Assembly (NCBI GenBank): GCA_019244055.1
Contig: JAFATG010000186.1
Span: 1 to 38,673, forward strand
Direction: 5' to 3'
Source: Acidobacteriaceae bacterium
GTDB taxonomy: Bacteria; Acidobacteriota; Terriglobia; Bryobacterales; Bryobacteraceae
Length of the DNA stretch: 38,673 bases
This document shows, piece by piece, positions 3,563-32,405 of the stretch. The translations under genes and the position numbers were made by a program. The notes under the pieces are model-generated. The model made no database searches. It was given only the letters and a program-made list of their open reading frames with translations, and was not told where the DNA came from. Position 1 is the stretch's first letter. Every line of letters begins with the position of its first letter.

Positions 3563-4320
3563 GAGACGATTCGAAAACAGGTAAGTTATACCTGATCGGT
3601 GCTGGTCCCGGCGACCCCGAACTGCTGACACTCAAAGCGGTTCGCGTCCTGGGCCAATGCGACGTGGTTCTGTACGATCGCCTAGTGAACAAGGCGATTT
3701 TGCAGCACGCAAAGCCGAGTGCGGAGTTGATCTATGTCGGAAAGCATCCTGGTGAGCAAGAGCGCGCTCAGAACGAGATTTTCGAGCTCATCCGTAGACA
3801 TGCTTTTCGCGGGCAAACAGTTGCGCGGCTGAAGGGCGGGGACCCGCTTGTCTTTGGGCGGGGCGCTGAGGAATGGTTCCTCGCCCTTCGGGACCACATC
3901 GAAGTAGAAGTGATTCCTGGTGTCACGTCGGCGATAGCGGTTCCAGGCCTGGCGGGTATACCGCTAACCTATCGCGGAGTATCGCAGAGTTTCGTGATCA
4001 TCACCGGACACTGTCATGAGGGGCGCAGTGACGAATGGCGCAGGTACGTTGAAGTAGACACGCTGGTAGTGCTCATGGGCGTAAGAAATCGCGAGTTCAT
4101 AGCGCGCTCGCTCATCGCCGCAGGCCGTAGACCAGAAGAACCGGTGGCGTTCGTTATGCGCGGCACTATGGCAGGAGAGCAAGTGGCCGAAAGTACCCTC
4201 GAAGATGTCGCGGCCGGCCGCACCGATATTCAGCCCCCCGCCGTTTTCGTGATCGGCGAAGTCGTGCGGCTAAGATCGAAGTTCAGGGAATCTCAACGAC
4301 GGCGAGGCCCTGCCCTATAA
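3559..4320 (+). CDS. cobA: Uroporphyrinogen-III C-methyltransferase (SUMT)
   Basis: Methylates uroporphyrinogen III at C2 and C7 with S-adenosylmethionine to give precorrin-2, the branch point to siroheme and cobalamin. At 253 residues it is a stand-alone SUMT without the CysG dehydrogenase/ferrochelatase part. Family motifs are clear: LIGAGPGDPELLTLKA (12-27), GGDPLVFGRGAEE (93-105), VIPGVTSAIA (118-127) and a late FVIGEVV. The only start that keeps the first motif and avoids the upstream gene is TTG at 3559, which has no good Shine-Dalgarno and lies in a hairpin. Its 3' end overlaps the convergent GH39 gene by 38 bp. A hemD lies 1.5 kb away on the opposite strand, which supports a tetrapyrrole role. 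Confidence 0.92.
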   Translation: MRDDSKTGKLYLIGAGPGDPELLTLKAVRVLGQCDVVLYDRLVNKAILQHAKPSAELIYVGKHPGEQERAQNEIFELIRRHAFRGQTVARLKGGDPLVFGRGAEEWFLALRDHIEVEVIPGVTSAIAVPGLAGIPLTYRGVSQSFVIITGHCHEGRSDEWRRYVEVDTLVVLMGVRNREFIARSLIAAGRRPEEPVAFVMRGTMAGEQVAESTLEDVAAGRTDIQPPAVFVIGEVVRLRSKFRESQRRRGPAL

Positions 4321-16734: not shown

Positions 16735-18198
16735 CTATCGGAACGCCGCGGCGGAGTAAGACGCGAAACCGAGCAACGTGCCGGGAAAAATGCCGAGGAA
16801 CAGCGTTCCGAGCGCGCTCGCCCAAATTGCAACTCGGAGGCCGAGTGACGGCGGAGGCAGCGCGGTCATTGCCTCCGATGGCTCGTGCATATAGATTGCG
16901 ACCACGATCTTCAGATAGTAATAAGCCGCAATAGCGCTATTGACGAGCCCGAGTACGGTCAACCAGACCAGATGCGAACTCAACGCTGCTTGAAACACGT
17001 AGAACTTGCCGAAGAAGCCGCCGGTCAGCGGCACGCCGATGAGCGAGAAGACGAATACGGCCAGAAGGGCGGCGGTGGCGGGCTCGCGACGGCCCAATCC
17101 GGCGAGATCTTCGATCTTTACATATCGTTCATTCCGGGCAGCGATATGGCTTATGACTATGAACGCGCCGATGTTCATCAGAGCGTACGAAGCAAGGTAG
17201 AACATCGCGGCGGCCACGCCGATCTGAGAGCTTGCTGTAAGCGCGACCAGCACGTATCCGGCGTGCGCGATCGAACTATAGCCAAGCAGCCGCTTTACAT
17301 TGGTCTGCAGCAAAGCAGCGAAATTACCGATGATCATGGTCGCCAACGCGCAACCCCAAACGAGCCAGATCCAGCGATCGTTCAGAGGCCGGAACGATGT
17401 CATGAACACGCGGAAGAAGACAGCGAATGCGGCTGCCTTCGGGCCGGCTGACATGAAGGCACTGACCGGGGCGGCAGCTCCTTGATACACATCGGGCGCC
17501 CACATCTGAAAGGGCACAACCGAAACCTTGAAGCCGAATCCAACAAACATCAGCGCGGCCGCCAATCCGGCCAGCACGGACGGGCGTTCTCCCACGCTCA
17601 AAACCCGGCGGATCTCTTCGAGATTGGTCGATCCGATCAGCCCGTATGTCCAGGCGATGCCGTACAGAAGGAATGCAGTCGCAAACGAACCGAGCAGGAA
17701 GTACTTGAGCGCGGATTCATTGTTGCGGCGATCATCGCGAAGGTAACCGGCCAGGATGTACGTAGCGATCGAAGAGATCTCCAGGCCAATGAAGACCATG
17801 ATCAGGTCGTTCGAGGTCGCAAGAATGCATTGCCCAACCAGGGAGAACAAAATCAAGGCGTAATATTCTCCGCTCTGGGCGCCCTCGCGCTCGAGATAGT
17901 TGAACGAAGCAAGGACACACAAGAAGCCGACCACCAGCACCAAACCGCGAAAAAATGTGCCGTATCCATCGACGATCAACATGTTCTGAAAGGCGATGCC
18001 GGCATCCGTAAACGCGCCGATATTGGCCACGAATGCCAGGACGATACCCAAAACGGCGATACCGCCCAAAAACGATTTCTTGCTGCCCTCGGGCGTAACG
18101 GCCTCGAGCATCATGATGACGATGCCGAATACGGTCAGGATGATCTCGGGAAGAAAGCGCAGGTAATCGGCAGCCGCGATCTGAATATCAATGGGCAT
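16735..18198 (-). CDS. nuoN: NADH-quinone oxidoreductase subunit N
   Basis: Antiporter-like proton-pumping subunit of the complex I membrane arm, 487 residues with about 14 transmembrane helices, the family's usual size. The key-glutamate helix is seen as IMVFIGLEISSIATYILAG (about 127-145). The KVSVVPFQMWAPDVYQGAAAPVSAFMS block carries the conserved lysine and broken-helix Pro. It is the last gene of the operon; its ATG lies 11 bp inside the end of nuoM, so translation is likely coupled. The order L-M-N is canonical. Confidence 0.95.
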   Translation of the reverse strand: MPIDIQIAAADYLRFLPEIILTVFGIVIMMLEAVTPEGSKKSFLGGIAVLGIVLAFVANIGAFTDAGIAFQNMLIVDGYGTFFRGLVLVVGFLCVLASFNYLEREGAQSGEYYALILFSLVGQCILATSNDLIMVFIGLEISSIATYILAGYLRDDRRNNESALKYFLLGSFATAFLLYGIAWTYGLIGSTNLEEIRRVLSVGERPSVLAGLAAALMFVGFGFKVSVVPFQMWAPDVYQGAAAPVSAFMSAGPKAAAFAVFFRVFMTSFRPLNDRWIWLVWGCALATMIIGNFAALLQTNVKRLLGYSSIAHAGYVLVALTASSQIGVAAAMFYLASYALMNIGAFIVISHIAARNERYVKIEDLAGLGRREPATAALLAVFVFSLIGVPLTGGFFGKFYVFQAALSSHLVWLTVLGLVNSAIAAYYYLKIVVAIYMHEPSEAMTALPPPSLGLRVAIWASALGTLFLGIFPGTLLGFASYSAAAFR

Positions 18199-19729
18199 CC
18201 ACCACCTCGGCGGCCGGAACAGCCGATGGCATCGTCAACTGAACTCGGTACTGATTGTTTACAGTCGTCTCCTCGAGCAGTCGCGAAGTCGCCGAAGAGA
18301 TCGGCGGCATGAACGATTGCGTGTAACTTCCCAGCCAGATCATCAGGGCAATGAGCGGTAGAACCGGCACCCAATCCCGCCGGGTGAGATCGAGAAACCC
18401 GGTGGCCGCCTCTGTTTTGCCTAGGAACGTCCGCTGGTACATCCACAACATATATGCGGCCGAAAGAACCACGCCGATGGCTGCCCACGCCGCCCAGGAA
18501 AACTGAGTAAGTGCGGCGCCTTGAAGAATTAGATATTCACCAATGAAGTTGCACAGAGTGGGAAGACCGACACTCGCGAAGAGTGCGATCAGGAATACCG
18601 TGGCAAGCGCGGGTGCCGGAGTGGCGATGCCGCCGAAATCCGCAATATCGAGCGAGCCGCGACGCTCCTCGAGATACCCAACCAAGAGGAAGAGTGCGCC
18701 GGTCGAGATGCCATGAGCAATCATCTGGTACACCGCACCATCCGCGCCCTGCTGGCTAAAGGTAAAGATTCCGAGGACCACAAATCCAAGATGGCTGATC
18801 GAAGAATAAGCAATGAGCCGTTTGAGATTCCGTTGGATCAACGCGATCAGAGCGCCGTAGACGATACCGGTGATCGCAAGAGCGGCTATCCAATCGGAAC
18901 ATCGATGCGCCCCGGTTGGAACGAGAGGCAAGCAGTAACGAAGCAGTCCGTATGCGCCCATCTTCGACATCACCGCCGCAAGCAGAAATGTAGCTGGTAC
19001 GGGAGCCTCGGTATAGGTGTCGGGCAGCCACGTGTGCAGCGGGAAAATGGGCACTTTTACCGCAAACGCCGCGAAGAAACCGAGGAAGAGCAGCATCTGC
19101 TGCGTGGGGCTGAACATCACTCGCCCGGAGTTGACGGCATTCATGATGTCCACGTAATCGAAGCTGCCCGCCTCCGTATAGAGATAAATGATCGAGGCCA
19201 GCATCAGCACAGAGCCAAGCATCGTGTACACGAAGAACTTGACGGCGGCAGGTCCGCGTCTGGCGCTGCCCCAGCTTCCCACCATGAGATACATGGGAAC
19301 CAGCGCCACCTCCCAAAACACATAGAAGATGAACAGATCGAGTGCGCTGAAGACGCCGATTAACCCAAACTCAAACAGAAGCAGCAAAGCGTAGAAGTTC
19401 TTGTGCCGCTCCTTAATCATCGTTTGGGAGATCCAGACGGCGATAGGAAGCAGCAGAGTTGTCAGAATTACGAGCCACAGGTTAATGCCGTCGACGCCGA
19501 GGTGCAAATGAATGCGCAACCCGGGCGTATCGACCCAGAGCCGGTCCACGGTGGAGGAGAAGTGGCCGCTAGCTGCATTGGCCGGCGCGATCAAAGTCAG
19601 AGAAGTGAAGAACGCCGCCAGTGTCGCGATGAGAGCGACAGCGAAGGAGGCCTTCGATTCCCGAGGCAGGAAGAGAAGAATAAAAAATCCGATCAGCGGA
19701 ATGAGCAGAACAGCGCCGAGAGGGTTCAT
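18188..19729 (-). CDS. nuoM: NADH-quinone oxidoreductase subunit M
   Basis: Second antiporter-like subunit of complex I, 513 residues with about 14 membrane helices. LFIFYVFWEVALVPMYLMVG carries the essential glutamate of helix 5. KVPIFPLHTWLPDTYTEAPVPATFLLAAVMSKMGAYGLLR is the conserved lysine/TM7-8 block. The start overlaps the nuoL stop as ATGA, and the end overlaps the nuoN start by 11 bp. Nothing is missing relative to functional family members. Confidence 0.96.
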   Translation of the reverse strand: MNPLGAVLLIPLIGFFILLFLPRESKASFAVALIATLAAFFTSLTLIAPANAASGHFSSTVDRLWVDTPGLRIHLHLGVDGINLWLVILTTLLLPIAVWISQTMIKERHKNFYALLLLFEFGLIGVFSALDLFIFYVFWEVALVPMYLMVGSWGSARRGPAAVKFFVYTMLGSVLMLASIIYLYTEAGSFDYVDIMNAVNSGRVMFSPTQQMLLFLGFFAAFAVKVPIFPLHTWLPDTYTEAPVPATFLLAAVMSKMGAYGLLRYCLPLVPTGAHRCSDWIAALAITGIVYGALIALIQRNLKRLIAYSSISHLGFVVLGIFTFSQQGADGAVYQMIAHGISTGALFLLVGYLEERRGSLDIADFGGIATPAPALATVFLIALFASVGLPTLCNFIGEYLILQGAALTQFSWAAWAAIGVVLSAAYMLWMYQRTFLGKTEAATGFLDLTRRDWVPVLPLIALMIWLGSYTQSFMPPISSATSRLLEETTVNNQYRVQLTMPSAVPAAEVVDAH

Positions 19730-21573
19730 CGAGTGCTTCCCGCGAGAATGAAGACAAAAATTACCAGGAGAGAGCCGGCCAAGATCAGCGTGGCGTAGTT
19801 GCGGATGCTCCCGGACTGATAGCGACGGAACATAGAGCCCCAGTCGCGCACGACCCGCCCTAATCCATTGACCAAGCCGGTATCAATAAGTCCTTCGTCC
19901 ACACCGCGCCAAAGAAACGTGCGCGAGATGCCTTCGAGCGGCTTGACGATTGCGGCTTGGTAGAACTCGTCCACGTAATACTTGTTGAGCACCAGCGTAT
20001 AGAGCGGCCCCATCGCGTTCTTAAACGATTCGGCAAGTCCAGGCCGAAAAACATACATAATGGCCGCAATGATGATGCCCAGAATGCCGAATGAAGCGGA
20101 GATCACCATGGCCGTAACGTTTTCGTGCTCGGAGAGCGGGAAAGCCGGCGAGAGCCAGGTCGGCACGTTGATGTAGCCGCCTCCGATCGAAAGAACAGCG
20201 AGCACGATGAGCGGCAAGGTCATGACTGGCGGCGATTCGTGCGCGTGATGATGGCCGCGATACTCTCCGAAAAATGCCAGGAAATAGGCGCGAAATACGT
20301 AAAACGCCGTGATGCCCGCGGTGATCGCTCCAATCCAAAACATCCAGGGCGCGTGCGTATATGCGGCTGACAAAATCGCGTCCTTGCTGAAAAACCCGGA
20401 GAAGCCCGGAAACCCTGAGATCGCGAGGCACGCCGCTCCCAGGGTCCAGAACGTGATGGGCATGGCTTTCCGAAGACCGCCCATGTGCCGTAAATCCTGC
20501 TCGCCGCTCAAGCCGTGAATGACGCTGCCGGCGCCCAAGAAGAGGAGCGCCTTAAAGAAGGCATGAGTCATGAGGTGAAAAATACCCGCCGAATACGCTC
20601 CTACTCCGAGTCCCAGGAACATGTAGCCGAGCTGCGAAATGGTCGAGTAGGCAAAGACTCTCTTAATGTCGTTCTGCGCCATTCCGATAGTCGCAGCCAT
20701 AACGGCAGTAATGAGGCCCACTACCGCAACGAAGCTCATCGCGACGGGCGCATGATCGTACAGGAACGAAAGGCGGGCGATCATGTACACGCCGGCCGTG
20801 ACCATGGTGGCCGCGTGAATCAAAGCAGAAACGGGCGTTGGACCGGCCATTGCATCCGGGAGCCAAACAAATAAGGGAATCTGAGCCGACTTGCCGGTTG
20901 CGCCTGCGAATAACAGGAGCGTGAGAACAGTCAGGGTGCCGAATCCTACTTCCGCCGGCATGGTCCCGACCGCCGTCGCCATCTTGCCGAAATCGAGAGT
21001 ATGGAACGTCACGACGGTGAGGAGAATGCCGAGCGTGAATCCAAAGTCACCGATACGGTTCACGATGAACGCTTTGTTTCCGGCATTGGTGACCCAGTCT
21101 TCATGGAAATAAAAACTGACCAGCAGATAACTGGAGAGGCCCACGCCTTCCCAACCGACGAACAGGAGTAGCAGATTCGAGGCCAGCACCAGAATCAGCA
21201 TGAAAAACATGAACAGATTCAGGAAACTGAAGAACCGGTAATAGCCGCTATCCTCGGCCATGTAACCGATCGAATAGATGTGGATGAGCAGCCCGACGCC
21301 AGTTACGACGAGCAGCATCACGGATGTCAGGCGATCAATGACCAGGTCAAACCCAACCTGGAGAAAACCGCTCTGGATCCAGGTGAAGTAATGCTCCGAA
21401 TACGCCGTGTTCAGCGGAGAGAGCTTCAGGAGAATCGCGACGACATAGAGGAACGACGCGGCCACCGTGCCAACCCCGATCACACTGATCAATTGCTTGC
21501 TGACACGGCGGCCCAAGATGCCATTCAGCGCGAAACCGATCAGAGGAAAGAACGGAATGAGCCAGAGGTTCAT
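19726..21573 (-). CDS. nuoL: NADH-quinone oxidoreductase subunit L
   Basis: Distal antiporter-like subunit with the long lateral helix, 615 residues. E142 in LLFVGWEGVGLSSYLLVS and K228 in GATGKSAQIPLFVWLPDAM are the expected proton-path residues. The His-rich loop YRGHHHAHESPPV and the C-terminal amphipathic helix region plus final membrane anchor (ATLILAGSLLVIFVFIL) fit the family. It lies 7 bp after nuoK and overlaps nuoM by ATGA. Confidence 0.96.
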   Translation of the reverse strand: MNLWLIPFFPLIGFALNGILGRRVSKQLISVIGVGTVAASFLYVVAILLKLSPLNTAYSEHYFTWIQSGFLQVGFDLVIDRLTSVMLLVVTGVGLLIHIYSIGYMAEDSGYYRFFSFLNLFMFFMLILVLASNLLLLFVGWEGVGLSSYLLVSFYFHEDWVTNAGNKAFIVNRIGDFGFTLGILLTVVTFHTLDFGKMATAVGTMPAEVGFGTLTVLTLLLFAGATGKSAQIPLFVWLPDAMAGPTPVSALIHAATMVTAGVYMIARLSFLYDHAPVAMSFVAVVGLITAVMAATIGMAQNDIKRVFAYSTISQLGYMFLGLGVGAYSAGIFHLMTHAFFKALLFLGAGSVIHGLSGEQDLRHMGGLRKAMPITFWTLGAACLAISGFPGFSGFFSKDAILSAAYTHAPWMFWIGAITAGITAFYVFRAYFLAFFGEYRGHHHAHESPPVMTLPLIVLAVLSIGGGYINVPTWLSPAFPLSEHENVTAMVISASFGILGIIIAAIMYVFRPGLAESFKNAMGPLYTLVLNKYYVDEFYQAAIVKPLEGISRTFLWRGVDEGLIDTGLVNGLGRVVRDWGSMFRRYQSGSIRNYATLILAGSLLVIFVFILAGSTR

Positions 21574-21580
21574 GTTTGGT

Positions 21581-21889
21581 TTAAAGTTTCAGGGAATCGA
21601 CTTCGTCAATCTGAAGCGTGCCGCGATTTTTGAAGATGGTGAGAATGATGGCCAAGCCGACTGCCGCCTCCGCGGCTGCGACCACCATCACGAAGAAGGA
21701 AAAAATGTGTCCGTCGATACGATGAAGTTCGTACGAAAACGCAATAAACGTCAGGTTCACAGCGTTAAGCATCAGTTCGATCGACATGAATACTGTGATG
21801 ACGCTCTTACGGTAAACAAACCCCGCCACACCGAGGGCGAACAGGATCGCACTCAGAATCAAGTACCACGACAGCGGAACGTGTCCCAT
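21581..21889 (-). CDS. nuoK: NADH-quinone oxidoreductase subunit K
   Basis: Small three-helix membrane subunit, 102 residues, homologous to MrpC/ND4L. The two membrane carboxylates are present: E38 in FMSIELMLNAVNL and E74 in VVAAAEAAVGLAI, matching E36 and E72 of E. coli NuoK. It begins 1 bp after the nuoJ stop. Confidence 0.96.
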   Translation of the reverse strand: MGHVPLSWYLILSAILFALGVAGFVYRKSVITVFMSIELMLNAVNLTFIAFSYELHRIDGHIFSFFVMVVAAAEAAVGLAIILTIFKNRGTLQIDEVDSLKL

Positions 21890-21890
21890 G

Positions 21891-22394
21891 CTATTCGATC
21901 TCCCTTCTGGCGAGGACTACCGCACCCAGAATCGCGATCAGTATCAAAACGGATATCACTTCGAACGGCAATAAATAGGTAGTGAACAGCAGCTCGCCGA
22001 TGTGCTGAGCGGTACCACCCACCCAACTGCCGAAGTCAACATCGCGAAGCGGCGGCAAAACGCCCCAGACGAGATACGCCAGCAATCCGACAAAGCAAAG
22101 CAACAGCGGCAATCCCAGAATCTGGGCAAACCAGGATTTGGTGCTTGCCTTCTCGGTTCCCGCATTCAGCAGCATAATGACGAAAACGAACAGGACCATG
22201 ACGGCGCCGCCGTAAACGATCATCTGGGCCATCGCCAGAAACTCCGCGCCGAGCAGCAAATAGAGAACCGCCAGGGAGCCCATGACGCCGATTAAGGAAA
22301 GCGCGCTCGCGATCGGATGCTTTTGGAGGACGAGATTGAATCCGCAGACAACAGCGACGATGGCGCAGATGATGAATATCCAACTATCGATCAA
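21891..22394 (-). CDS. nuoJ: NADH-quinone oxidoreductase subunit J
   Basis: ND6-like subunit with five membrane helices, 167 residues. The conserved block AEFLAMAQMIVYGGAVMVLFVFVIMLL includes the pi-bulge helix 3 involved in coupling. The start is TTG at 22394, supported by a very strong ribosome site (GAGGTGA, 4 nt upstream). In most operons nuoI precedes nuoJ; here nuoH is directly upstream with a 16-bp gap and no room for nuoI. Confidence 0.95.
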   Translation of the reverse strand: MIDSWIFIICAIVAVVCGFNLVLQKHPIASALSLIGVMGSLAVLYLLLGAEFLAMAQMIVYGGAVMVLFVFVIMLLNAGTEKASTKSWFAQILGLPLLLCFVGLLAYLVWGVLPPLRDVDFGSWVGGTAQHIGELLFTTYLLPFEVISVLILIAILGAVVLARREIE

Positions 22395-22410
22395 GGGGTC
22401 ACCTCACGTC

Positions 22411-23598
22411 TCAAGAAACCAACGCGACAAGGAGCGCGGTGAGCAGTAGATTCGCGAGTGCGCATGGAAAGAGAAATGTCCACGCGAAGTGCATCAGCTG
22501 GTCATAGCGGAAACGAGGAAGTGTCCCGCGAACCCATATGTAGGTGAACAGCAGAGCGCCGGCCTTAGCGGCGAACCACCAGGGCGGAACAAGAAATCTT
22601 TGAATGATCGGAATCGCCCAGATGACCGCCAGAATCAGGAACATGACGCCGAATACAGGGAAGGTGTACTTGTCCCGTTTTCTCGCCGGCTGGATGGCAT
22701 GAAAGAAACAAATAATCGCAGCGAAAACAAACACCGCGGTGGGCACCCAATTCGAATACGGAGCGGGAAATAACGGCGTCCACCCGCCGAGAAACAGCAG
22801 TGTGGCAACGCACGTAATCGTCACCATATTGGCGTACTCCGACATAAAGAAGCAGGCGAATTTCATGCTGCTGTATTCGGTATGAAACCCGGCAACAAGC
22901 TCGTTTTCCGCCTCCGGCAAGTCGAACGGCAAGCGGTTCGTCTCAGCGAAACCCGCAATCATGAAAATGATGAAGCCAAAGATTTGCGGGAAAGGCATTT
23001 GAAAAATGTTCCACCGCGGAATGAAGCCGAGGTAGTAACCCATCTGGCTCTCGGTGATGGACCGAAAACTAAGATGATTCGCGAGCAGGAGCGGTGAAAC
23101 GATGACCAAGGTCAGCGGCAGTTCATAGCTGATCATCTGGGCACTGCTGCGCAACCCACCAAGCAGCGAGTACTTATTGTTAGATGACCAGCCGGCAAGC
23201 GCAACGCCGTAGACGCTAACTGCGCCAATCGCCAGGATAAAAAGAATCCCGACATTTACATCACTGATCTGCTCAAAGGTCTGGTAACCGGCTGCAGTTA
23301 CCGCGGGACCGAACGGAATGATGGAGATGGAAATCAGAGCGAGCGAAACCGCGATAAACGGTGCAAGCAGATAGAAGAACTTATTCGCGTACGGCGGTAC
23401 CAGATCTTCTTTTGTCAGCAGTTTGAACACATCGGCCAACGGTTGCATCAGCCCGTGCGGTCCAACTCGCAGGGGGCCAGTTCGGGATTGGATATGCGCC
23501 AGAACTTTTCGCTCGATCCATTGCAGATAGGCGAGCGTGGTCATGAATACCGCGAAGACGATGACGATCTTAATCAGGCTGACAATGAAGAAGTTCAT
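22411..23598 (-). CDS. nuoH: NADH-quinone oxidoreductase subunit H
   Basis: ND1-like subunit forming the quinone chamber at the junction of the two arms, 395 residues, longer than E. coli NuoH (about 325). The signature WIERKVLAHIQSRTGPLRVGPHGLMQPLADVFKLLTKED follows TM1. The acidic loop FAETNRLPFDLPEAENELVAGFHTEYSS carries the conserved glutamates. The extra length lies in loops near 185-205 and in the C-terminal third. No ferredoxin-type cysteines occur, so NuoI is not fused here. It overlaps the nuoG stop by ATGA. Confidence 0.95.
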   Translation of the reverse strand: MNFFIVSLIKIVIVFAVFMTTLAYLQWIERKVLAHIQSRTGPLRVGPHGLMQPLADVFKLLTKEDLVPPYANKFFYLLAPFIAVSLALISISIIPFGPAVTAAGYQTFEQISDVNVGILFILAIGAVSVYGVALAGWSSNNKYSLLGGLRSSAQMISYELPLTLVIVSPLLLANHLSFRSITESQMGYYLGFIPRWNIFQMPFPQIFGFIIFMIAGFAETNRLPFDLPEAENELVAGFHTEYSSMKFACFFMSEYANMVTITCVATLLFLGGWTPLFPAPYSNWVPTAVFVFAAIICFFHAIQPARKRDKYTFPVFGVMFLILAVIWAIPIIQRFLVPPWWFAAKAGALLFTYIWVRGTLPRFRYDQLMHFAWTFLFPCALANLLLTALLVALVS

Positions 23599-25748
23599 TT
23601 CTGATGCTTCAACACTTCGATTTGACCGCTTCCCTTCTCGATAATGGGCTCCAGACCCGGATCATGATACAGCGTGCCGGGTGCTTCGAGGACCGAATTC
23701 AGCATAGTCGAATAACGACCGAGCGTTCCAGACGTGAATAGCGTATTTCCAGCCGAGCGTATCAACTCGGGCTGAGCCTGAAACTCGACTCGCCCGTTCA
23801 GGGGCGCTGTCGCAGCTCCGCCGCCGGTTTCCACCACCCCGAACGGCAGATTGTAGCCGCGAACCGAACGACGGATCTCTTCGAAAACCGCTTCTGGCCT
23901 GGCTGGTCCCAAGCCGGCTTGCAGTTCTTTCGCCAACAATCCGAAGATCTCGAGATCCGGCTTCGCGCCCATTGTCTTCGGTCCGCGGCTGAGCTTCTGG
24001 ACGTCTCCACAGACGTTGGTGACGGTTCCGTTCTTCTCGTAAGCGGAAGCAGCCGGCAGGACAACGTCGGCGCGCCGCGTGGTTTCGGTCAGGAACAGGT
24101 CTTGAACGACCACGAATGCACGGTCGGACGCAAACGTGTTCCGGGCCAGCGGATTTGCACCGACAACCCAGAGCACATCCAGATCGGCCGCCGTCACCAT
24201 CTGGTCCAGATTCAATCCGGGTTCAAGGCCGGCATCGCGCACGTTGCTATAACCCGGCATCAGATCGGGCAGAAGTCCCATGTCGGATGCGCCCCGGGAA
24301 TTAGAATAATCGAGCAGGCAGACGTATTTGACGGAAATGCCGAGCGAATCGCCGAAGGTGACGAGCTGGCGGATGCGATCGCTCTTGATGGCCGCGCCAA
24401 ACAGAATCACCAGCTCCCCTTCGCCGGCGAGGCGCTCACGAAGTTTTTCGAGCTCATCGAATTCGGATCCAACCTCGGCGCGAACGCCGGTCCCGTAATT
24501 GTCTTCTCGCACCGGTCCGGGCGTAATGGCGTAGATGTGAGCCTTGTGGTGCCGCCAATTCGCGCGTAGTTGGAAAGCGAGCAACGGCTGTTCCTGTGCG
24601 AGGTCAGCGTGAATCACTATCGCGGCTTTCGTCGTATATAGATCAGCCGTGGTCGCCAGCGCGCCGGTCTTGCCGTGTAGCGCATCCAGCAGACTCGCCA
24701 TGTCCCCAGTACGGTGGTGGTCTATGTTGGATGTCTTTAGCACCTGACGCGCGAACTTCTGAAGAAAATAATTCTCTTCGTTCGTCGTGTGATTCGACCC
24801 GATCACACCAAAGCGGCCGTTGCGCGCCTTGGTCTCGCTAAATTTCTTTGCAACGGTCGCCAGCGCAATCGCCCAAGAAACCGGCTTCAGCTCCCCGTTA
24901 TTGCGAACCAGTGGCGCGGTGAGCCGTTCAGGATTCGAATTGAAATCGAAAGCATAGCGGCCCTTAATGCAAAGAAACTCTCCGTTCACACCTGACCGGT
25001 CGCGGTTATTGCAGCGAATGATGCTCCCGTTGCGGACACCCATCGTGGTTTTGCAACCGTTGGAGCAATGCGTGCAAATCGTGCCAATGTGCTCCATTTC
25101 CCAGGGCCGGGTCTTGTAACGATAGGTGCCGGACGTCAACGCACCGACAGGGCAGATATCGATGCAGGCGCCGCATTCGTCGCATTCGAGATGATCGCCG
25201 CGGTTGGGAACGATTTCCGCAGCTGCTCCTCGATTCCCGATTCCGAGCGCGCCAACGCCCAAACCTTCGGCACAGATGCGCACGCAGCGGTAGCAAAGAA
25301 TGCAGCGCGGCGCATCGTAGAACACGACCGGCGACCACTGCTTCTCATCGACGTGCAGCTTGGCTTCCAAGTAGCGGCTTTCGGCCGCGCCGTAACGAAA
25401 TACCATGTCCTGGAGCTCGCACTCTCCGCCTTTGTCGCAAACCGGGCAATCCAGCGGATGATTCGTAAGCAGAAACTCAAGCATGCCCTTGCGAGCGCCT
25501 CTGACCTGCTCTGAATCTGTGTGCACGACCATGCCCTCGGCAACCGGCATCGTGCAGGCGACTTGCAGCTTTGGCGTCTTCTCGATTTCCACCAGGCACA
25601 TACGGCAAGCCGCCTGAAGCGAAAGCCCGTCGTAATAGCAAAAGGACGGAATTGCGATGCCCGCTTCTTTGGCCGCGTTGATGAGCAGTGTTCCAGCGGG
25701 AGCCTGAAGCTGGCGGCCATCGATGGTGAAGTTGACTAAGTCAGCCAT
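23595..25748 (-). CDS. nuoG: NADH-quinone oxidoreductase subunit G (eight-Cys variant)
   Basis: Largest peripheral-arm subunit, 717 residues. The N-terminal ferredoxin has C37, C48, C51 and C65 (cluster N1b). H97, C101, C104 and C110 ligate N5. C149, C152 and C155 with C199 match N4, but C159, C189, C192 and C195 are also present. The module therefore has eight cysteines, as in HoxU- and hydrogenase-type dicluster ferredoxins, and may hold one additional [4Fe-4S] cluster. C225, C228, C232 and C260 form an N7-type site. A molybdopterin-oxidoreductase-like fold follows (about 265-640). The gap to nuoF is 24 bp, and it overlaps nuoH by ATGA. Confidence 0.95.
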   Translation of the reverse strand: MADLVNFTIDGRQLQAPAGTLLINAAKEAGIAIPSFCYYDGLSLQAACRMCLVEIEKTPKLQVACTMPVAEGMVVHTDSEQVRGARKGMLEFLLTNHPLDCPVCDKGGECELQDMVFRYGAAESRYLEAKLHVDEKQWSPVVFYDAPRCILCYRCVRICAEGLGVGALGIGNRGAAAEIVPNRGDHLECDECGACIDICPVGALTSGTYRYKTRPWEMEHIGTICTHCSNGCKTTMGVRNGSIIRCNNRDRSGVNGEFLCIKGRYAFDFNSNPERLTAPLVRNNGELKPVSWAIALATVAKKFSETKARNGRFGVIGSNHTTNEENYFLQKFARQVLKTSNIDHHRTGDMASLLDALHGKTGALATTADLYTTKAAIVIHADLAQEQPLLAFQLRANWRHHKAHIYAITPGPVREDNYGTGVRAEVGSEFDELEKLRERLAGEGELVILFGAAIKSDRIRQLVTFGDSLGISVKYVCLLDYSNSRGASDMGLLPDLMPGYSNVRDAGLEPGLNLDQMVTAADLDVLWVVGANPLARNTFASDRAFVVVQDLFLTETTRRADVVLPAASAYEKNGTVTNVCGDVQKLSRGPKTMGAKPDLEIFGLLAKELQAGLGPARPEAVFEEIRRSVRGYNLPFGVVETGGGAATAPLNGRVEFQAQPELIRSAGNTLFTSGTLGRYSTMLNSVLEAPGTLYHDPGLEPIIEKGSGQIEVLKHQK

Positions 25749-25772
25749 AAATATAGTTGGAGCGACCGCGTA

Positions 25773-27080
25773 CTAAACGGAGGCAAGCTCCGCAACAGGA
25801 GTGGTCGCGCGGGATTTACGCAAGTACTCTTCGAATTCGCCACGAAACTTGGTAATGAAGCCCCCCGTTGGCATGGCGGCCGCATCGCCCAGAGCGCAAA
25901 ATGTACGGCCCAGCATATTGGCGGACAGCTCGCCTATCAGATCGATGTCGCTAGGCACGCCACCACCCTCATGGAAGCGAGTGAGGAGCTTTTTCAGCCA
26001 CGTTGTACCTTCGCGGCAAGGAATGCACCAGCCGCAGCTCTCGTGCGCGTAGAATTTGATGGTTCGAAGTGCAACCGCGACTATATCCGTATCCTCGTCG
26101 AGCACAACGATGCCCCCGGAGCCGGCCATCGACTTGGCTTTTGCCAGCGAATCGAAATCATAGGGAATGTCGCATTCCTCCGCCCGCAACACCGGCGCGG
26201 AGGAGCCGCCCGGGATCACAGCTTTCAGTTTCTTGCCGTTGCGCACGCCACCGCAAACTTCATCGATGATGCGCATGATGGGAAATCCCATGGGCAGCTC
26301 ATATACGCCCGGTTTGTTCACGTGGCCTGAGATGCACACAAGGCGCGTCCCGCCGTTCTTGGGCGTGCCGAGCGAAGAGTACCAGGCGCCCCCGTTACGG
26401 AAAATGACGGGAACTGCGGAGAACGTCTCGCAATTGTTCAGAATTGTCGGTGACTGAAACGCGCCCACAACTGCGGGAAACGGAGGCTTCAGGCGAGGCA
26501 CGCCCCGCTTGCCTTCCAGCGATTCGAGCAGCGCCGATTCTTCTCCGCATTCGTAGGCGCCTGCGCCGGTATGAGTGTAGACGTCAAAGTCCCAACCTGA
26601 ACCGAGGATATTCTTCCCGAGATAGCCGCGCTCGTAGGCTTCGGCGATCGCGCGATCCACAATGTCGATCAGATACCGATATTCGCCGCGGATGAAAATA
26701 TAGCCTTTGTTCGATTTAATGGTCCAGCCCGCGATCAGCATCCCTTCAATGAGCTGATGGGGATCATTTTCCATGAGTAAGCGATCTTTGCAGGTGCCGG
26801 GTTCGCTTTCATCGGAATTGCAGATGATGTATGTCGGTTTTCCGGTGTTGCGCGGGACAAAGCTCCACTTCATTCCGGTCGGGAAACCGGCGCCCCCGCG
26901 ACCACGGAGAGCGGATGTCTTCAGCTCCTCAATTATCGCCTCGGGAGTTAAGCCGAGAACCTTCTTAATCGCCACATAGCCGTCATTGGCCAGGTATGTA
27001 TCGATTGAGACTGAGTTGGGAATGTCGAATCGCTGCGAGATGACTCTTACTTCCAGCGGGCTTGGATCGTTGTAGCGCAT
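25773..27080 (-). CDS. nuoF: NADH-quinone oxidoreductase subunit F
   Basis: NADH-oxidising subunit that carries FMN and cluster N3, 435 residues. GRGGAGFPTGMKW (60-72) binds NADH, GAGAYECGEESALLESLEG (172-190) binds FMN, and C349, C352, C355 with C395 ligate the [4Fe-4S] cluster N3. With NuoE and NuoG it forms the dehydrogenase module. The start is ATG at 27080, 9 bp after the nuoE stop. No features depart from the family. Confidence 0.97.
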   Translation of the reverse strand: MRYNDPSPLEVRVISQRFDIPNSVSIDTYLANDGYVAIKKVLGLTPEAIIEELKTSALRGRGGAGFPTGMKWSFVPRNTGKPTYIICNSDESEPGTCKDRLLMENDPHQLIEGMLIAGWTIKSNKGYIFIRGEYRYLIDIVDRAIAEAYERGYLGKNILGSGWDFDVYTHTGAGAYECGEESALLESLEGKRGVPRLKPPFPAVVGAFQSPTILNNCETFSAVPVIFRNGGAWYSSLGTPKNGGTRLVCISGHVNKPGVYELPMGFPIMRIIDEVCGGVRNGKKLKAVIPGGSSAPVLRAEECDIPYDFDSLAKAKSMAGSGGIVVLDEDTDIVAVALRTIKFYAHESCGWCIPCREGTTWLKKLLTRFHEGGGVPSDIDLIGELSANMLGRTFCALGDAAAMPTGGFITKFRGEFEEYLRKSRATTPVAELASV

Positions 27081-27089
27081 TGCTTTCTT

Positions 27090-27590
27090 TCAGGACGCTT
27101 TCTTCCCGTAACTTCCGTCGCGCAAAGACTCCATCAAGCGGTCAAATCGCTCCGGAGTCACGAAATGGTGAAAATCGTAGTTGATCTGAATAGCCGGGGC
27201 CCAGGAGCATGCGCCCATGCACTCCACCTCCTCGAGCGAGATCAGGCCGTCTTCGGTAACCTCTCTATTGCCGAGTCTCAGTGTCCGGCTCGCGTGATCG
27301 TACAGCTCTTCAGCCCCCAGCGCCTGACAAGCAATATTCGTACAGACCTGAACATGATACTTGCCGAGCGGCTTTCGATGGAGCATCGAATAGTATCCGA
27401 TGACTTCATCCACCTGCAGCGGGGTCACCTCGCAGCGCCGCGCCACTTCTTCGATCAGTTCGGGCGAAACGCACCCGATTTCGTCTTGGGCGTACAGCAG
27501 CATGGGAACAATTGCGGAACGCAGGCGGCGGGGCGGGTAGCTGGTGAGCAGTTTCGCGAATCTTTCTTCAAGCGCAGGCGAGAAGGTCAT
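27090..27590 (-). CDS. nuoE: NADH-quinone oxidoreductase subunit E
   Basis: Thioredoxin-like [2Fe-2S] subunit (cluster N1a), 166 residues. An N-terminal helical bundle (AIVPMLLYAQDEIGCVSPELIEEVA, about 26-50) precedes the cluster ligands C83, C88, C124 and C128 (VCTNIACQALG and ECMGACSWAP). It is 4 bp downstream of nuoD and 9 bp upstream of nuoF. Confidence 0.96.
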   Translation of the reverse strand: MTFSPALEERFAKLLTSYPPRRLRSAIVPMLLYAQDEIGCVSPELIEEVARRCEVTPLQVDEVIGYYSMLHRKPLGKYHVQVCTNIACQALGAEELYDHASRTLRLGNREVTEDGLISLEEVECMGACSWAPAIQINYDFHHFVTPERFDRLMESLRDGSYGKKAS

Positions 27591-27594
27591 AGGA

Positions 27595-28860
27595 TCAGCG
27601 ATCCACGTCTCCCAGAACGAAATCCATGCTCCCCATCACCGCGATCGAATCGGCAATCAGCACGCCTTCGAGCATCGCGCCGAGCGATTGCAAATTTCCA
27701 AAACTTGGCGTACGCATAAAGACGCGGTGGGGATTCGCGGTCCCGTCACTGACAACGTAATAACCGAGCTCGCCACGCGGCGATTCCACCACCTGGTAAA
27801 CAGACCCGGCCGGAACACGGTACCCTTCGGTCACGATCTTGAAATGATAGATGAGCGCTTCCATCTGCGTTTTCATCTTTTCGCGATCGGGAAGCAGGAT
27901 GTGGGGTGCGTCGGCGTGCCACGGCCCGCTCGGCATGCCATCCAGCGCTTGCCGGACCATCCGAATGCTTTGGCGCATCTCCTCCATGCGCACTTCGAAG
28001 CGCGCATACACATCATTTGCGGTGCGTGTCGGAACGTCGAACTGGAATTTGTCGTAGCTCGAATGCGGCGAATCCTTTCGCGCATCGATGTTGACGCCCG
28101 CGGCGCGAAGCATGGGGCCGGTGACACCGAGATCGATCATAATATCGACCGGCAGCATCCCTACGCCCTTCGTTCGATTTACCCAGATCGGGTTTCCGGC
28201 AAGAAGCTCCTGATATTCGTCGACTCCGCTTTGGAGGCGTTCTACGACGCGCGTGATGGCCTTATGCCAGCCTCGAGGCGGTTCCAAGGCCAGTCCGCCC
28301 GGACGAATGTAACTCGTCATCATTCGCTGCCCGGAAAACATTTCGAAAATCTTGAGGATCTCTTCCCGTTCGCGGAAGCAGTAGAAATAAACGGTCATCG
28401 CGCCAATATCGAGCGCATGCGTGCCCAGCCAAATCAGATGGCTTGCCACGCGCGTCAACTCGCATAACAGGACGCGCATCCACTGAGCCATCTCCGGAAT
28501 CTCGAGACCGAGCAGCTTCTCGACAGCTAGCGCGTAGCACAGATTGTTGTTCAAGTTCGCCAGGTAATCGACCCGATCGGTAAGCGGGACGACCTGCTGA
28601 TACTTCTTGGCCTCACATTGCTTCTCGATCCCGGTATGCAAATAACCGATCTCCGGGCGGGCACTGAGGATCGTTTCGCCATCAAGCTCCAGCACGACGC
28701 GCAAGACCCCATGAGTTGACGGGTGTTGCGGCCCCATGTTGAGCGTCATACGCCGTCCGGAGCCGGGCTGCGAACCTTTATATTCGAGTCCGGAGGGATC
28801 TTCGATCGCTAGTTCATGCTCCGCGTCAAGCGAAGCGACGTGATCGTAGCCTTCTCTCAT
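27595..28860 (-). CDS. nuoD: NADH-quinone oxidoreductase subunit D
   Basis: 49-kDa-type subunit that forms the quinone site with NuoB, 421 residues. NMGPQHPSTHG (41-51) carries the histidine of the quinone-binding loop, IGYLHTGIEK follows, and the C-terminus ends FVLGDVDR as in functional homologues. An N-terminal extension of about 35 residues precedes the core. Its usual partner NuoB (cluster N2) is absent from the window, which is notable because NuoD and NuoB share the quinone pocket. It follows nuoC by 18 bp. Confidence 0.97.
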   Translation of the reverse strand: MREGYDHVASLDAEHELAIEDPSGLEYKGSQPGSGRRMTLNMGPQHPSTHGVLRVVLELDGETILSARPEIGYLHTGIEKQCEAKKYQQVVPLTDRVDYLANLNNNLCYALAVEKLLGLEIPEMAQWMRVLLCELTRVASHLIWLGTHALDIGAMTVYFYCFREREEILKIFEMFSGQRMMTSYIRPGGLALEPPRGWHKAITRVVERLQSGVDEYQELLAGNPIWVNRTKGVGMLPVDIMIDLGVTGPMLRAAGVNIDARKDSPHSSYDKFQFDVPTRTANDVYARFEVRMEEMRQSIRMVRQALDGMPSGPWHADAPHILLPDREKMKTQMEALIYHFKIVTEGYRVPAGSVYQVVESPRGELGYYVVSDGTANPHRVFMRTPSFGNLQSLGAMLEGVLIADSIAVMGSMDFVLGDVDR

Positions 28861-28878
28861 CGGTACGTTCCAACGCTT

Positions 28879-29361
28879 CTATTCATCTCGATAAGAATAT
28901 TTGTGACCGTGAACCGGGTAATCTTTTCTCAAGGGATGGCCTTCCCAGTCGGCGGGCATCATGATTCGTTCCAGATTAGGGTGCTTGCGGAAAACGACTC
29001 CGAACAGGTCGAAGGTTTCGCGTTCGTACCAGTTGGCGCCCCGCCACACTGAAGTCACCGAGTCAATCTCCTGGCCCTCGCCCGTTCTCACCGCCAGACG
29101 GAGCCGGCGCTTGTCGTGCAGCGACTGGAGTAAGTAGATTACCTCGAAACGGGGTGAACGCGGCCACCAATCCACTCCGGTGATCCCGGCGAGACGCACG
29201 AAACCGGCCTCCTTTAAATGCCGGCAAACGGGCACAATCTGGGCAGAATCGATATAAATCTGCGGTTCATCAACGGCCATTACGGCGTCGACGATAGCGC
29301 CAGGGACTTGCTGGTCAACAGCGAGCGCATCTGAATTGCCGGCGATTACCTCAGGCAGCAC
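28879..29361 (-). CDS. nuoC: NADH-quinone oxidoreductase subunit C
   Basis: 30-kDa-type connecting subunit, 160 residues as called. The family signature ERETFDLFGVVFRKHPNLERIMMPADWEGHPLRKDYP lies near the C-terminus. I chose GTG at 29361 because GGGAG stands 7 nt upstream; it overlaps the end of nuoA by 11 bp. An in-frame ATG at 29400 has no ribosome site and would add 13 residues under nuoA. In standard operons nuoB lies between nuoA and nuoC; here they overlap. Confidence 0.93.
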   Translation of the reverse strand: MLPEVIAGNSDALAVDQQVPGAIVDAVMAVDEPQIYIDSAQIVPVCRHLKEAGFVRLAGITGVDWWPRSPRFEVIYLLQSLHDKRRLRLAVRTGEGQEIDSVTSVWRGANWYERETFDLFGVVFRKHPNLERIMMPADWEGHPLRKDYPVHGHKYSYRDE

Positions 29362-29770
29362 GCTCGGACTCCCTGGATGATATGCGCTGACGCGATTCAT
29401 CGACGGACCAGTTCAGAACACCTTTTTTCCAGATATAGAAGAACCCGCAGAGCACCAGCACGATAAACAGCAGCATTTCAAAAAACGCAAACAGCTTCAA
29501 TTGGCGGTAAATGACCGCCCAAGGATAAAGAAAGATGGCTTCGATATCAAATAGGATGAAAACCATCGCGACCAGATAGAACCTCACCGAGAAGCGTTCA
29601 CGAGCGTTCCCGACCGGCTTCATGCCGGATTCATAAGGGCTCATCTTAACGGGATCTTTCACCTTACGGCCCAGCAAAGCGGACAAGCCGATCATGGCCG
29701 CGGCTACCGCAATGGCAATCAGGATTTGGATGAGAACTGGAAACCACGTCTCGGCATAAGTGGCGGGCAT
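29351..29770 (-). CDS. nuoA: NADH-quinone oxidoreductase subunit A
   Basis: ND3-like subunit with three membrane helices, 139 residues. YESGMKP in the first loop and FDIEAIFLYPWAVIYRQL in TM2 are diagnostic. As the first gene of the twelve-gene minus-strand operon it should follow the promoter, which must lie in the 99-bp region shared with thiS. I see no convincing minus-strand -35/-10 pair there. Confidence 0.95.
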   Translation of the reverse strand: MPATYAETWFPVLIQILIAIAVAAAMIGLSALLGRKVKDPVKMSPYESGMKPVGNARERFSVRFYLVAMVFILFDIEAIFLYPWAVIYRQLKLFAFFEMLLFIVLVLCGFFYIWKKGVLNWSVDESRQRISSRESERAA

Positions 29771-29827
29771 GGCGCTTTAATTACCAGAGTAGCAACGGTA
29801 TGAGCCTACAATGTGCTCAGCGAACTG

Positions 29828-29856
29828 CATACAGCCACGGCAATAATTCATATAAT
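29828..29856 (+). promoter_or_regulatory. Candidate sigma70-type promoter for thiS
   Basis: A perfect TATAAT (29851-29856) is preceded by CATACA (29828-29833, half-matching TTGACA) with a 17-bp spacer. A start of transcription near 29863 would leave only about 7 nt before the GTG at 29870, so the transcript would be almost leaderless. The match is by eye only. Confidence 0.4.
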
Positions 29857-29869
29857 CACGACAGGGACA

Positions 29870-30094
29870 GTGGGGAACTTATCACTCCAATCGATCCGGA
29901 TCATCGTAAATGGAGAGCCGCGGGAGATCCCTCCCCAAGAATCTGTCGCTAGCTTGCTCCGTTTCCTGGATCTCCCATTGGAACGTGTAGCGGTTGAACT
30001 GAACAAGGTCATTGTTCGGAAGAGGGATTGGGACAGCACGAGCGTTGTTGACGGCTCCCAGATCGAAGTTGTGGAGTTCGTTGGAGGAGGCTAA
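29870..30094 (+). CDS. thiS: Sulfur carrier protein ThiS
   Basis: Small ubiquitin-fold protein that carries thiocarboxylate sulfur for the thiazole of thiamin. The sequence IRIIVNGEPREIPPQESVASLLRFLDL through IEVVEFVGGG has the typical length and ends in the required Gly-Gly. I chose GTG at 29870 (74 residues). The longer frame to another GTG at 29813 would start upstream of the apparent -10 box, and its extra residues are unlike ThiS. AGGGA lies 2 nt before the GTG, closer than usual. No thiG, thiF or thiO is adjacent, so this is an orphan copy. A related role for another sulfur pathway is possible. Confidence 0.82.
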   Translation: MGNLSLQSIRIIVNGEPREIPPQESVASLLRFLDLPLERVAVELNKVIVRKRDWDSTSVVDGSQIEVVEFVGGG

Positions 30095-30184: not shown

Positions 30185-30715
30185 ATGTTCAAAACACGAA
30201 AAGTCCGTCCTGATTTGCTCCACGAAGGACACCCACGCGGCGATAAGAACTCACCCCAGCGGACCTATACGAGTACGGACGTTGCGAAGATCGCTCAGGT
30301 CAGCCTGCGGCAGTTGCAGTGGTGGGATGAGCGCAAAGTCGTTTCTCCGCGTCACGAGGGTCACAAGCGCATTTACTTGCCAGAAGAAGTGATTGAGATT
30401 ACAGTGATCGCCGAATTGCGGCGTAAGGGATTTTCACTACAAAAGATCCGGCGCGTTCTGCGGTTCCTGCAGCGTGAAATGGGCCGCCGTCTGGCGGATG
30501 TGTTTTCGAGCGACTCCAAATTGCATCTTCTGACCGACGGCAAATCGATTTTCTTAGAGGACCAGCAAGACCGCATAATCGATTTGCTCAAGAACGCCCG
30601 CCAACCGATGTTCCTGGTTTGCGTGAGCGATCAGGTAAGGAGATTGGACGAAATCCCTAAGAAGCCCAACCGCAGCGAGGGAATCCTCGCAAAACGTGCT
30701 CGCGCAGCCGTTTAA
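30185..30715 (+). CDS. MerR-family transcriptional regulator
   Basis: A 176-residue DNA-binding protein. The MerR winged helix runs from about residue 27 to 95: YTSTDVAKIAQVSLRQLQWWDERKVVSPRHEGHKRIY, then ELRRKGFSLQKIRRVLRFLQ. The C-terminal part (about 96-176) is short and lacks the paired cysteines of metal sensors, so the effector is unknown. A basic 25-residue leader precedes the helix-turn-helix. The gene stands 90 bp after thiS with its own promoter candidate and 58 bp before the S41 protease gene; neither neighbour is a known MerR target. Confidence 0.85.
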   Translation: MFKTRKVRPDLLHEGHPRGDKNSPQRTYTSTDVAKIAQVSLRQLQWWDERKVVSPRHEGHKRIYLPEEVIEITVIAELRRKGFSLQKIRRVLRFLQREMGRRLADVFSSDSKLHLLTDGKSIFLEDQQDRIIDLLKNARQPMFLVCVSDQVRRLDEIPKKPNRSEGILAKRARAAV

Positions 30716-30773
30716 ACGAATCTTTCACCCTCATTAACCGTCTATACTGGGAGCGAGACCCCTGGAGGTTCAT

Positions 30774-32405
30774 TTGTCTTCCCCGCGGCGGTATTTCCTG
30801 TTTGTTCCCCTTTTTCTAATTTCCGGCGCTTTGATAGGCGGGTATTTTGGCCCGGGCGGGCATGCGCTTGCGGCTGCGCAAGCTCCCGACCACATCACGA
30901 ATGTCGCCTCTGATGAGGATTTGAAGGCAAGCATCGAGTCGTTTACGAAGGTGTACGACATCGTAAACCAGAATTATTCGGACAAGCTATCGCCGGATAA
31001 GGCGATCTACCGGGGCGCCATTCCAGGCATGCTGCGAACGCTCGATCCTCACTCGAATTTTTTCGACCCGAAAGAGTTCGCAGGACTGCGCGAAGAGCAA
31101 CACGGGATGTACTACGGCATCGGAATGTTAATTGGCGCCCAGCCGCGGACCGGTAAGCCGATGGTTATCCATCCGTTCGGCGGGACCCCGGCGTACAAGG
31201 CGGGCATTCGCCCCGGCGATTTGCTCATGGAAGTGAACGACAAGCGCGTCGATAATCTGAACACTACCGAAGTGGCTGACATGCTGAAGGGGCCCAAGGG
31301 AACGAAGGTGCAAGTGGTCGTGGCGCGGGAAGGCTCTTCCAAGCCGATTACCTTCAATCTGGTTCGAGATGAGATTCCACGAAACAGCGTTGATACGGCC
31401 ATTTGGGTAAAGCCCGGCATCGCCTATATGCGAATTCAGTCCTTTACTGAAACAACCAGTAAAGAGGTGGAAGAAAATCTCAAAGCTCTTGGCGAGCCGA
31501 ACATCAAGGGATTGATCCTGGATTTGCGCGAAAACCCCGGCGGTTTGCTGCAGGAAGGCGTCGCCACGGCTGGACATTGGCTAGATCGCGGGCAAGTAGT
31601 TGTTTCCCATAAAGGACGAGCTTATTCCGAGAAACCGTACCTGGCTCGCGGAAGCGAATACGGAGAAAGGTACCCGATTGTCGTGCTGGTGAATCGGTAT
31701 TCTGCCTCGGCCGCTGAAATCGTCGCCGGCGCTTTGCAAGATCACGATCGCGCCTGGGTTTTAGGCGATACGACTTTCGGCAAGGGGCTGGTGCAGACTG
31801 TGTATCCGCTCAGCGACAATACGGGTCTAGCCTTGACAACACAGCATTACTACACGCCCAGCGGGCGCCTGATTCAGCGGAATTATTCCAACATTTCCTT
31901 CCTGGATTATTACTACGGCAAACGAACTGAAGCAAAAGATCCGATGGACGTGAAGCAGACGGATCTGGGACGCGTTGTCTACGGCGGCGGTGGAATTACC
32001 CCTGATGAGAAGTACGAACCTGCAAAGCTGGATGGCTTCGAGCTGACCGTTGCCCGGAAGAATGCGTTTTTCAATTTCTCATCGTTCTACTTCGGCGATC
32101 ACAGCACAAAGCTGCCGAAGGGCTGGACCCCGGATGAGACGGTTATGGAAAGCTTCCATGATTGGTTGCTGAAGCAGCAAGGGATTCAGTTCACGGAAGC
32201 CGATTGGACCCGAGATCATAGCTGGCTACGCGACAAACTCCGCTCGGAGATGTATATCACGGGCTTCAGCTATGAGGACGCCGAGAAGCTAGACGTCGAA
32301 CAGGATCCGGAGATCCAGAAAGCCATTGAAGCGATGCCGAAGGCAGCCAGCCTGCTCGCGCAGTCGAAGGCGCGATTTGAGAAGCAGCGGGCGAGCCTGC
32401 ACTAG
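30774..32405 (+). CDS. Carboxy-terminal processing protease (S41 family, PDZ)
   Basis: Exported serine protease of the CtpA/Prc family, 543 residues. It cleaves proteins from the C-terminus in the cell envelope. A signal or anchor spans residues 7-34, the PDZ domain about 110-190, and the S41 fold about 210-390. The catalytic Ser312 (YSASAAEIVAGAL) and Lys337 (TTFGKGLVQT) are 25 residues apart, as in E. coli Prc. The start is TTG at 30774, set by GGAGG 6-7 nt upstream; no ATG competes. A TATACT box (30743-30748) could serve as -10. The C-terminal about 140 residues are extra relative to short CtpA forms. Confidence 0.92.
   Translation: MSSPRRYFLFVPLFLISGALIGGYFGPGGHALAAAQAPDHITNVASDEDLKASIESFTKVYDIVNQNYSDKLSPDKAIYRGAIPGMLRTLDPHSNFFDPKEFAGLREEQHGMYYGIGMLIGAQPRTGKPMVIHPFGGTPAYKAGIRPGDLLMEVNDKRVDNLNTTEVADMLKGPKGTKVQVVVAREGSSKPITFNLVRDEIPRNSVDTAIWVKPGIAYMRIQSFTETTSKEVEENLKALGEPNIKGLILDLRENPGGLLQEGVATAGHWLDRGQVVVSHKGRAYSEKPYLARGSEYGERYPIVVLVNRYSASAAEIVAGALQDHDRAWVLGDTTFGKGLVQTVYPLSDNTGLALTTQHYYTPSGRLIQRNYSNISFLDYYYGKRTEAKDPMDVKQTDLGRVVYGGGGITPDEKYEPAKLDGFELTVARKNAFFNFSSFYFGDHSTKLPKGWTPDETVMESFHDWLLKQQGIQFTEADWTRDHSWLRDKLRSEMYITGFSYEDAEKLDVEQDPEIQKAIEAMPKAASLLAQSKARFEKQRASLH

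Follow-up and report, generated by a model that had tools for sequence, protein, structure and literature searches.

According to PMC12361115, complete complex I (NADH-quinone oxidoreductase, encoded by the nuo genes) is found in most Acidobacteriota species, and in most clades, split complex I occurs alongside the single-cluster form; the relevant passages leave the subunits lying outside in Acidobacteriota unspecified, and its main text does not contain the word "nuoI." According to the title of an article cited there, nuo gene order is dispensable for assembly in Escherichia coli (PMC12361115). In Acidobacterium capsulatum 161, "nuoAC" are mentioned together as continuously expressed NDH-I genes on the basis of transcript data, and a second complex I with a duplicated nuoM is mentioned as well (PMC11636273). 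Split nuo clusters are, in general, already known. For nuoB and nuoI lying outside the operon in Acidobacteriota, our literature search, limited to open-licence papers, found no description. Here, we report on the nuo operon of the window, i.e., the whole stretch of 38,673 nucleotides that was analyzed (contig JAFATG010000186.1, assembly GCA_019244055.1, Acidobacteriaceae bacterium, family Bryobacteraceae), whose organism belongs to the same class, Terriglobia, as A. capsulatum. This operon holds twelve of the fourteen subunit genes and lacks nuoB and nuoI, an absence that is an inherited lineage trait common to many related Acidobacteria. We are highly confident that it belongs to an ordinary 14-subunit NADH-type complex I of a Bryobacterales-like acidobacterium, from which nuoB and nuoI moved out in ancestors to become two separate single genes.

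Results

The genes nuoA, C, D, E, F, G, H, J, K, L, M, and N occupy the minus strand from position 29770 down to 16735, in that order, and every one of the 12 matched its subunit family (A and J below the curated model cut-offs). The features of the operon, with lengths in amino acids (aa) and base pairs (bp), and the two stand-alone genes found elsewhere in the genome are as follows.

29351..29770, minus strand: nuoA, 139 aa; NCBIfam NADH-quinone oxidoreductase subunit A, 2.5e-33, under the curated cut-off
29351..29400: A/C joint, the usual place of nuoB; 50-bp overlap of nuoA and the longest nuoC frame, no NuoB-like sequence
28879..29400, minus strand: nuoC, 173 aa; TIGR01961, above cut-off
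27595..28860, minus strand: nuoD, 421 aa; TIGR01962, above cut-off
27090..27590, minus strand: nuoE, 166 aa; TIGR01958, above cut-off; N1a-type cysteines C83, C88, C124, C128
25773..27080, minus strand: nuoF, 435 aa; TIGR01959, above cut-off; SCGxCxxCR motif
23595..25748, minus strand: nuoG, 717 aa; TIGR01973, 490.6 bits, above cut-off; ferredoxin-like cysteine motifs present
22411..23598, minus strand: nuoH, 395 aa; NCBIfam NuoH models, 8.8e-110; NF004741 above cut-off
22395..22410: H/J joint, the usual place of nuoI; 16 bp between nuoH and nuoJ
21891..22394, minus strand: nuoJ, 167 aa; NCBIfam subunit J, 9.8e-31, under the curated cut-off
21581..21889, minus strand: nuoK, 102 aa; NF004320, above cut-off
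19726..21573, minus strand: nuoL, 615 aa; TIGR01974, above cut-off
18188..19729, minus strand: nuoM, 513 aa; TIGR01972, above cut-off
16735..18198, minus strand: nuoN, 487 aa; TIGR01770, above cut-off
Contig C2 (L007), 8297-8848, minus strand: stand-alone nuoB, 183 aa; TIGR01957, 225.7 bits
Contig C33 (L008), about 4157-4678, plus strand: stand-alone nuoI, about 173 aa; TIGR01971, 145.6 bits, above cut-off

The canonical 14-gene order, with nuoB between nuoA and nuoC and nuoI between nuoH and nuoJ, is thus not found in the window, as a sequence-only reading of this DNA had already stated together with the 16-bp H/J distance. No match to Oxidored_q6 at E <= 0.001 occurred anywhere in the window, and the sole match of the NuoI profile there was the ferredoxin-like part of NuoG (25125-25313, 21.1 bits). 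ATGA overlaps join nuoG to nuoH and nuoL to nuoM, and the real nuoC start may lie further inside its longest frame. The succession of A then C fits the "nuoAC" report in A. capsulatum. All seven subunits of the membrane arm (NuoA, H, J, K, L, M, and N) are encoded in the operon, and the presence of the NADH module (NuoE, NuoF, and NuoG) with its iron-sulfur (Fe-S) motifs rules out an 11-subunit complex I-like enzyme devoid of this module.

The genome is a 6.2-Mb draft of 372 contigs, 96.7% complete, in which the window is contig C115. Among the matches listed, the NuoB model TIGR01957 had a single match in the genome, on C2; the NuoI model TIGR01971 had one match above cut-off, on C33, and three weaker ferredoxin-like matches of 21 to 32 bits. 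The "clean relocation to another locus" of the sequence-only reading is therefore borne out by one gene of the NuoB family and one full gene of the NuoI family. NuoB carries cluster N2, and NuoI carries N6a and N6b. The NuoB of this genome has exactly four cysteines (C57, C58, C123, and C151), which align with those of the Thermus subunit, and its NuoI has both CxxCxxCxxxC (4Fe-4S) motifs; the four N2 cysteines were present in all 21 NuoB sequences examined (two of them second-complex NuoB), as were both 4Fe-4S motifs in 21/21 NuoI sequences. The best solved-structure matches were chains 6 and 9 of Thermus 2fug for NuoB and NuoI, respectively. Of the quinone (Q) module, NuoC and NuoD are thus encoded in the operon and NuoB, with its N2 cysteines, on C2. 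The second Oxidored_q6 match of the genome is the small subunit of a nickel-iron (NiFe) hydrogenase whose large subunit is encoded alongside (L009, G000:C105, 6423-11689), next to a frame that we take to be HypF-like.

Relatives were compared through NuoH-centred stretches, the family and genus codes being kinship codes. The sample of the window's family comprised 35 loci, including the window, and covered 32 of 40 genus codes among the matches listed. In this family, nuoA was directly followed by nuoC in 33/33 loci holding both genes (gap of -47 to 123 bp) and nuoH by nuoJ in 34/34 (gap of 4 to 73 bp). The same adjacencies were seen in 24 further loci (A-C in 18/18, H-J in 24/24, gaps up to 522 bp), 10 of which are placed in this class by their kinship codes, whereas the other 14 are named by record title, some reading just "Acidobacteria bacterium." They recurred in family codes f6, f10, and f13 (L337, L335, and L336; 3/3 for both joints), and the 12-gene form was found in nine Terriglobia family codes (f1, f4, f6, f7, f8, f10, f11, f12, and f13). 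Many of the 80 named loci surveyed end at contig edges and do not display both joints there; contig ends also cut the f2 loci and, in the window's family, L073. Some loci are duplicates (L081 of L060, L085 of L161, L089 within G166, and L115 within G006 by coordinates). The recurrence of the same two joints in dozens of relatives argues that those of the window are neither chance nor an assembly slip. It also means that what the sequence-only reading had named as lowering the novelty, namely, a lineage trait, largely applies, although no paper that calls the trait known was found.

Some relatives carry other nuo clusters. A second complex I cluster with the order C D (H) I J K L M N (H), in which A, B, E, F, and G were not found, occurs within the window's family and order (L075, L076, L077, and L079), and the second-complex NuoB of relatives is of a distinct type. 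In the window's family, L054 (G038) shows E to N without A, C, and D alongside, and in L066 (G078), J and everything after H are absent; in L101, one of the 24 further loci, A adjoins E, and B, C, and D were not seen there.

Beyond the class, twelve loci of other Acidobacteriota (including L118, which is titled Acidimicrobiia and whose NuoB groups with the rest) had nuoB in the A/C position in 8/8 loci holding both genes and nuoI between nuoH and nuoJ in 0/12. In six of them (L103, L118, L138, L139, L142, and L153), nuoF and nuoH were not separated by nuoG either; the corresponding genomes (G211, G212, G213, G215, G216, and G217) had their best NuoG matches on non-operon contigs. Outgroups such as Nitrospira defluvii (L098) have all fourteen genes in order, the 14 outgroup loci having been chosen for holding nuoB and nuoI inside, which makes their 14/14 a result of selection. 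A wider sample of other classes, made up of 40 loci drawn from 34 genomes in 32 family codes, revealed a mosaic: nuoB and nuoI were both inside in L301, L326, L330, and L332, nuoI was missing in L303 and L305, and nuoG and nuoI were both missing in L306, L319, and L328; the sample also included second-type and more broken clusters. In L294 and L300 of this sample, nuoM was not found.

In the NuoB tree, the type-1 stand-alone NuoB, 20 rows in all, fall into a single clade (99/94) that broadly follows the taxa; of the 25 rows labelled beforehand as "alone," five (L193, L202, L194, L256, and L258) group with second-complex NuoB outside this clade. In the NuoI tree, the stand-alone NuoI of Terriglobia cluster (100/97) with stand-alone NuoI from three genomes of the 13-gene kind, one of these labelled Pyrinomonadaceae; the rows L217 and L275 do not differ. 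Another six stand-alone NuoI, from other classes, are separate in the best tree, and a single clade of all 34 stand-alone rows was not rejected by the approximately unbiased test (p-AU of 0.452). Identity matrices of 15 genomes (G204 and 14 that kinship codes place in the class) gave r of 0.85 for NuoI and NuoD versus 0.86 for NuoH and NuoD. The trees fit a vertical relocation of both genes, NuoB better than NuoI.

On C2, nuoB is flanked by malQ and by a thyX-like gene (weak match), with frames further out that are presumably dut- and dcd-like; nuoI on C33 lies between a frame and an RraA-like gene. Among 21 stand-alone nuoB loci, no common ancestral site was found, the dut/dcd/thyX-like genes are restricted to the window's genus, and three loci have neighbors that we assume to be flagellar. 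On the same strand, a gene with a homocysteine S-methyltransferase domain follows nuoI in 5/9 genomes outside Terriglobia (of the remaining four, two offer too short a stretch beside nuoI to tell) and in four of seven genomes of the Acidobacteriaceae-like group; none was present in the Bryobacterales loci tested. Outside Terriglobia, it is fused to methylenetetrahydrofolate reductase in the two genes checked; the Acidobacteriaceae-like gene is 31 to 38% identical to it and is a cobalamin-type methionine synthase in the two checked. Since the methionine-synthesis genes differ between groups, this neighbor is a hint only, and as the mark of one ancient nuoI exit, it is only suggestive. A frame judged NuoA-like by eye lies 4.5 to 5.1 kb from the stand-alone nuoI in L268, L269, and L271.

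At the nuoA end of the window, a ThiS-family gene (29813-30094, plus strand) diverges from the adjoining nuoA, followed by genes for a MerR-type regulator and then an S41/PDZ peptidase (30185-32405, plus strand). A ThiS-family gene was found by tblastn in 31 of the 42 relative loci tested and lies near the nuoA end in those compared.

Discussion

We propose that a functional enzyme is, most likely, made from three loci in the window organism, its co-expression, assembly, and activity being inferred from the genes. As suggested by gene packing, the twelve operon subunits would be produced from one transcription unit, while NuoB (N2) and NuoI (N6a and N6b), expressed from their own units, would join the Q module after translation. 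Electrons would pass from flavin mononucleotide through the NuoE, NuoF, and NuoG clusters to NuoI, then NuoB, and finally quinone, with pumping probably via NuoH, J, K, L, M, and N. The earlier view that the complex probably still works appears reasonable. Regarding its history, the simplest scenario is an early exit of nuoI in part of the phylum and a later exit of nuoB, at least once, an order inferred because some lineages keep nuoB in the operon but not nuoI.

Several observations weigh against this interpretation. Not all of the class has the trait: among the loci of family codes f3, f5, f6, and f9 are other complex I clusters that contain nuoI, and those examined in f3, f5, and f9 are exclusively of such other types, without E-F-G. 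Moreover, a species of the window's own genus (L078, G084:C64) additionally has a full A-N operon; its NuoB is very divergent, and this operon was perhaps acquired from elsewhere. Many genomes hold a second complex I, where the pairing of a NuoB with its complex is by sequence type only. NuoB also co-evolves less tightly with its partners in the 15 genomes, with r of 0.50 with NuoD, 0.24 with NuoF (86/2,000 permutations as high), and 0.12 with NuoC (361/2,000 permutations as high); as NuoB is very conserved, these low correlations may be noise. Both genes are outside the operon beyond Terriglobia as well (L294, L300, L320, and L322), which could mean an earlier or a repeated nuoB exit, and the stepwise order was drawn from genomes without a species tree. 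Finally, inspection by eye of the regions upstream of nuoA, nuoB, and nuoI in the window's genus and one further genus (three to four sequences each) revealed no convincing shared motif or promoter.

A more general hypothesis would be that Fe-S subunits leave the operon preferentially in Acidobacteriota, nuoI first and then either nuoB or nuoG, depending on the branch; unlinking could then let the synthesis of these subunits be tuned apart, e.g., to iron-sulfur supply or to an assembly step. We regard such a preference as unlikely because genes without Fe-S clusters are also absent from clusters (L296, L316, L054, L066, L096, and L101, and nuoM in L294 and L300).

The stand-alone genes could also be horizontally acquired xenologs and not relocated native genes. 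How stand-alone NuoI is placed at depth relative to operonic NuoI from other phyla has poor resolution, its two groups remain unjoined in the best tree, and the NuoB-NuoC and NuoB-NuoF correlations are weak, all of which would suit such an origin. However, the single clade of type-1 NuoB, the grouping of Terriglobia NuoI with those of three 13-gene genomes, and NuoI distances that follow NuoD and NuoH make it quite improbable.

Replacement of lost NuoB and NuoI by another ferredoxin or a hydrogenase-like subunit, which the sequence-only reading had envisaged as a ferredoxin-type connector, would have candidates in the hydrogenase small subunit on C105 and in a ferredoxin-like 104-aa frame on C357 (31.6 bits). 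It is unnecessary, and we consider it very improbable, given that true NuoB and NuoI with their cluster cysteines exist once each in the genome and also in relatives. The same reading had suggested that the two genes left as a B-I pair or mini-operon, to which their common membership of the Q module lends some sense. The two genes lie on different contigs among unrelated neighbors, and nuoI alone has left in other Acidobacteriota. Furthermore, type-1 nuoB and nuoI share one contig in at least eight relatives, at linear distances between about 61 kb and 1.8 Mb: among the matches listed, about 933 kb in G008, 1.77 Mb in G020, 61.5 kb in G039, 779 kb in G049, 616 kb in G075, 156 kb in G105, 178 kb in G123, and 186 kb in G171 (G049 and G105 each hold another NuoB copy, which proved on checking to be of the second-complex type). 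Hence, we give next to no credence to a joint export. An assembly or binning error at both joints is barely conceivable, even for a 372-contig draft, as dozens of relatives show identical joints, among them G039, whose genome is a single contig.

Our study, in which the acidobacterial host recognized earlier proved right, indicates that the two complex I genes for the last electron-transfer steps can remain apart from the twelve others throughout much of a bacterial class. The biochemistry is ordinary and the evolutionary interest modest; nevertheless, operon-only annotation could score such genomes as incomplete for complex I, and the 14-gene clusters, the 13-gene clusters without nuoI, and the 12-gene clusters without nuoB and nuoI or without nuoG and nuoI offer a natural series for studying operon break-up.

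Compared to the 14-gene operon of N. defluvii, the window genome has the same subunits and the same relative order of the twelve, the difference being that nuoB lies in the A/C position and nuoI in the H/J position in N. defluvii, whereas both are elsewhere in the window genome. In cyanobacteria and plastids, the ndh genes are dispersed over several loci. These form several small clusters, in contrast to the window genome with its one 12-gene operon and exactly two exported singletons.

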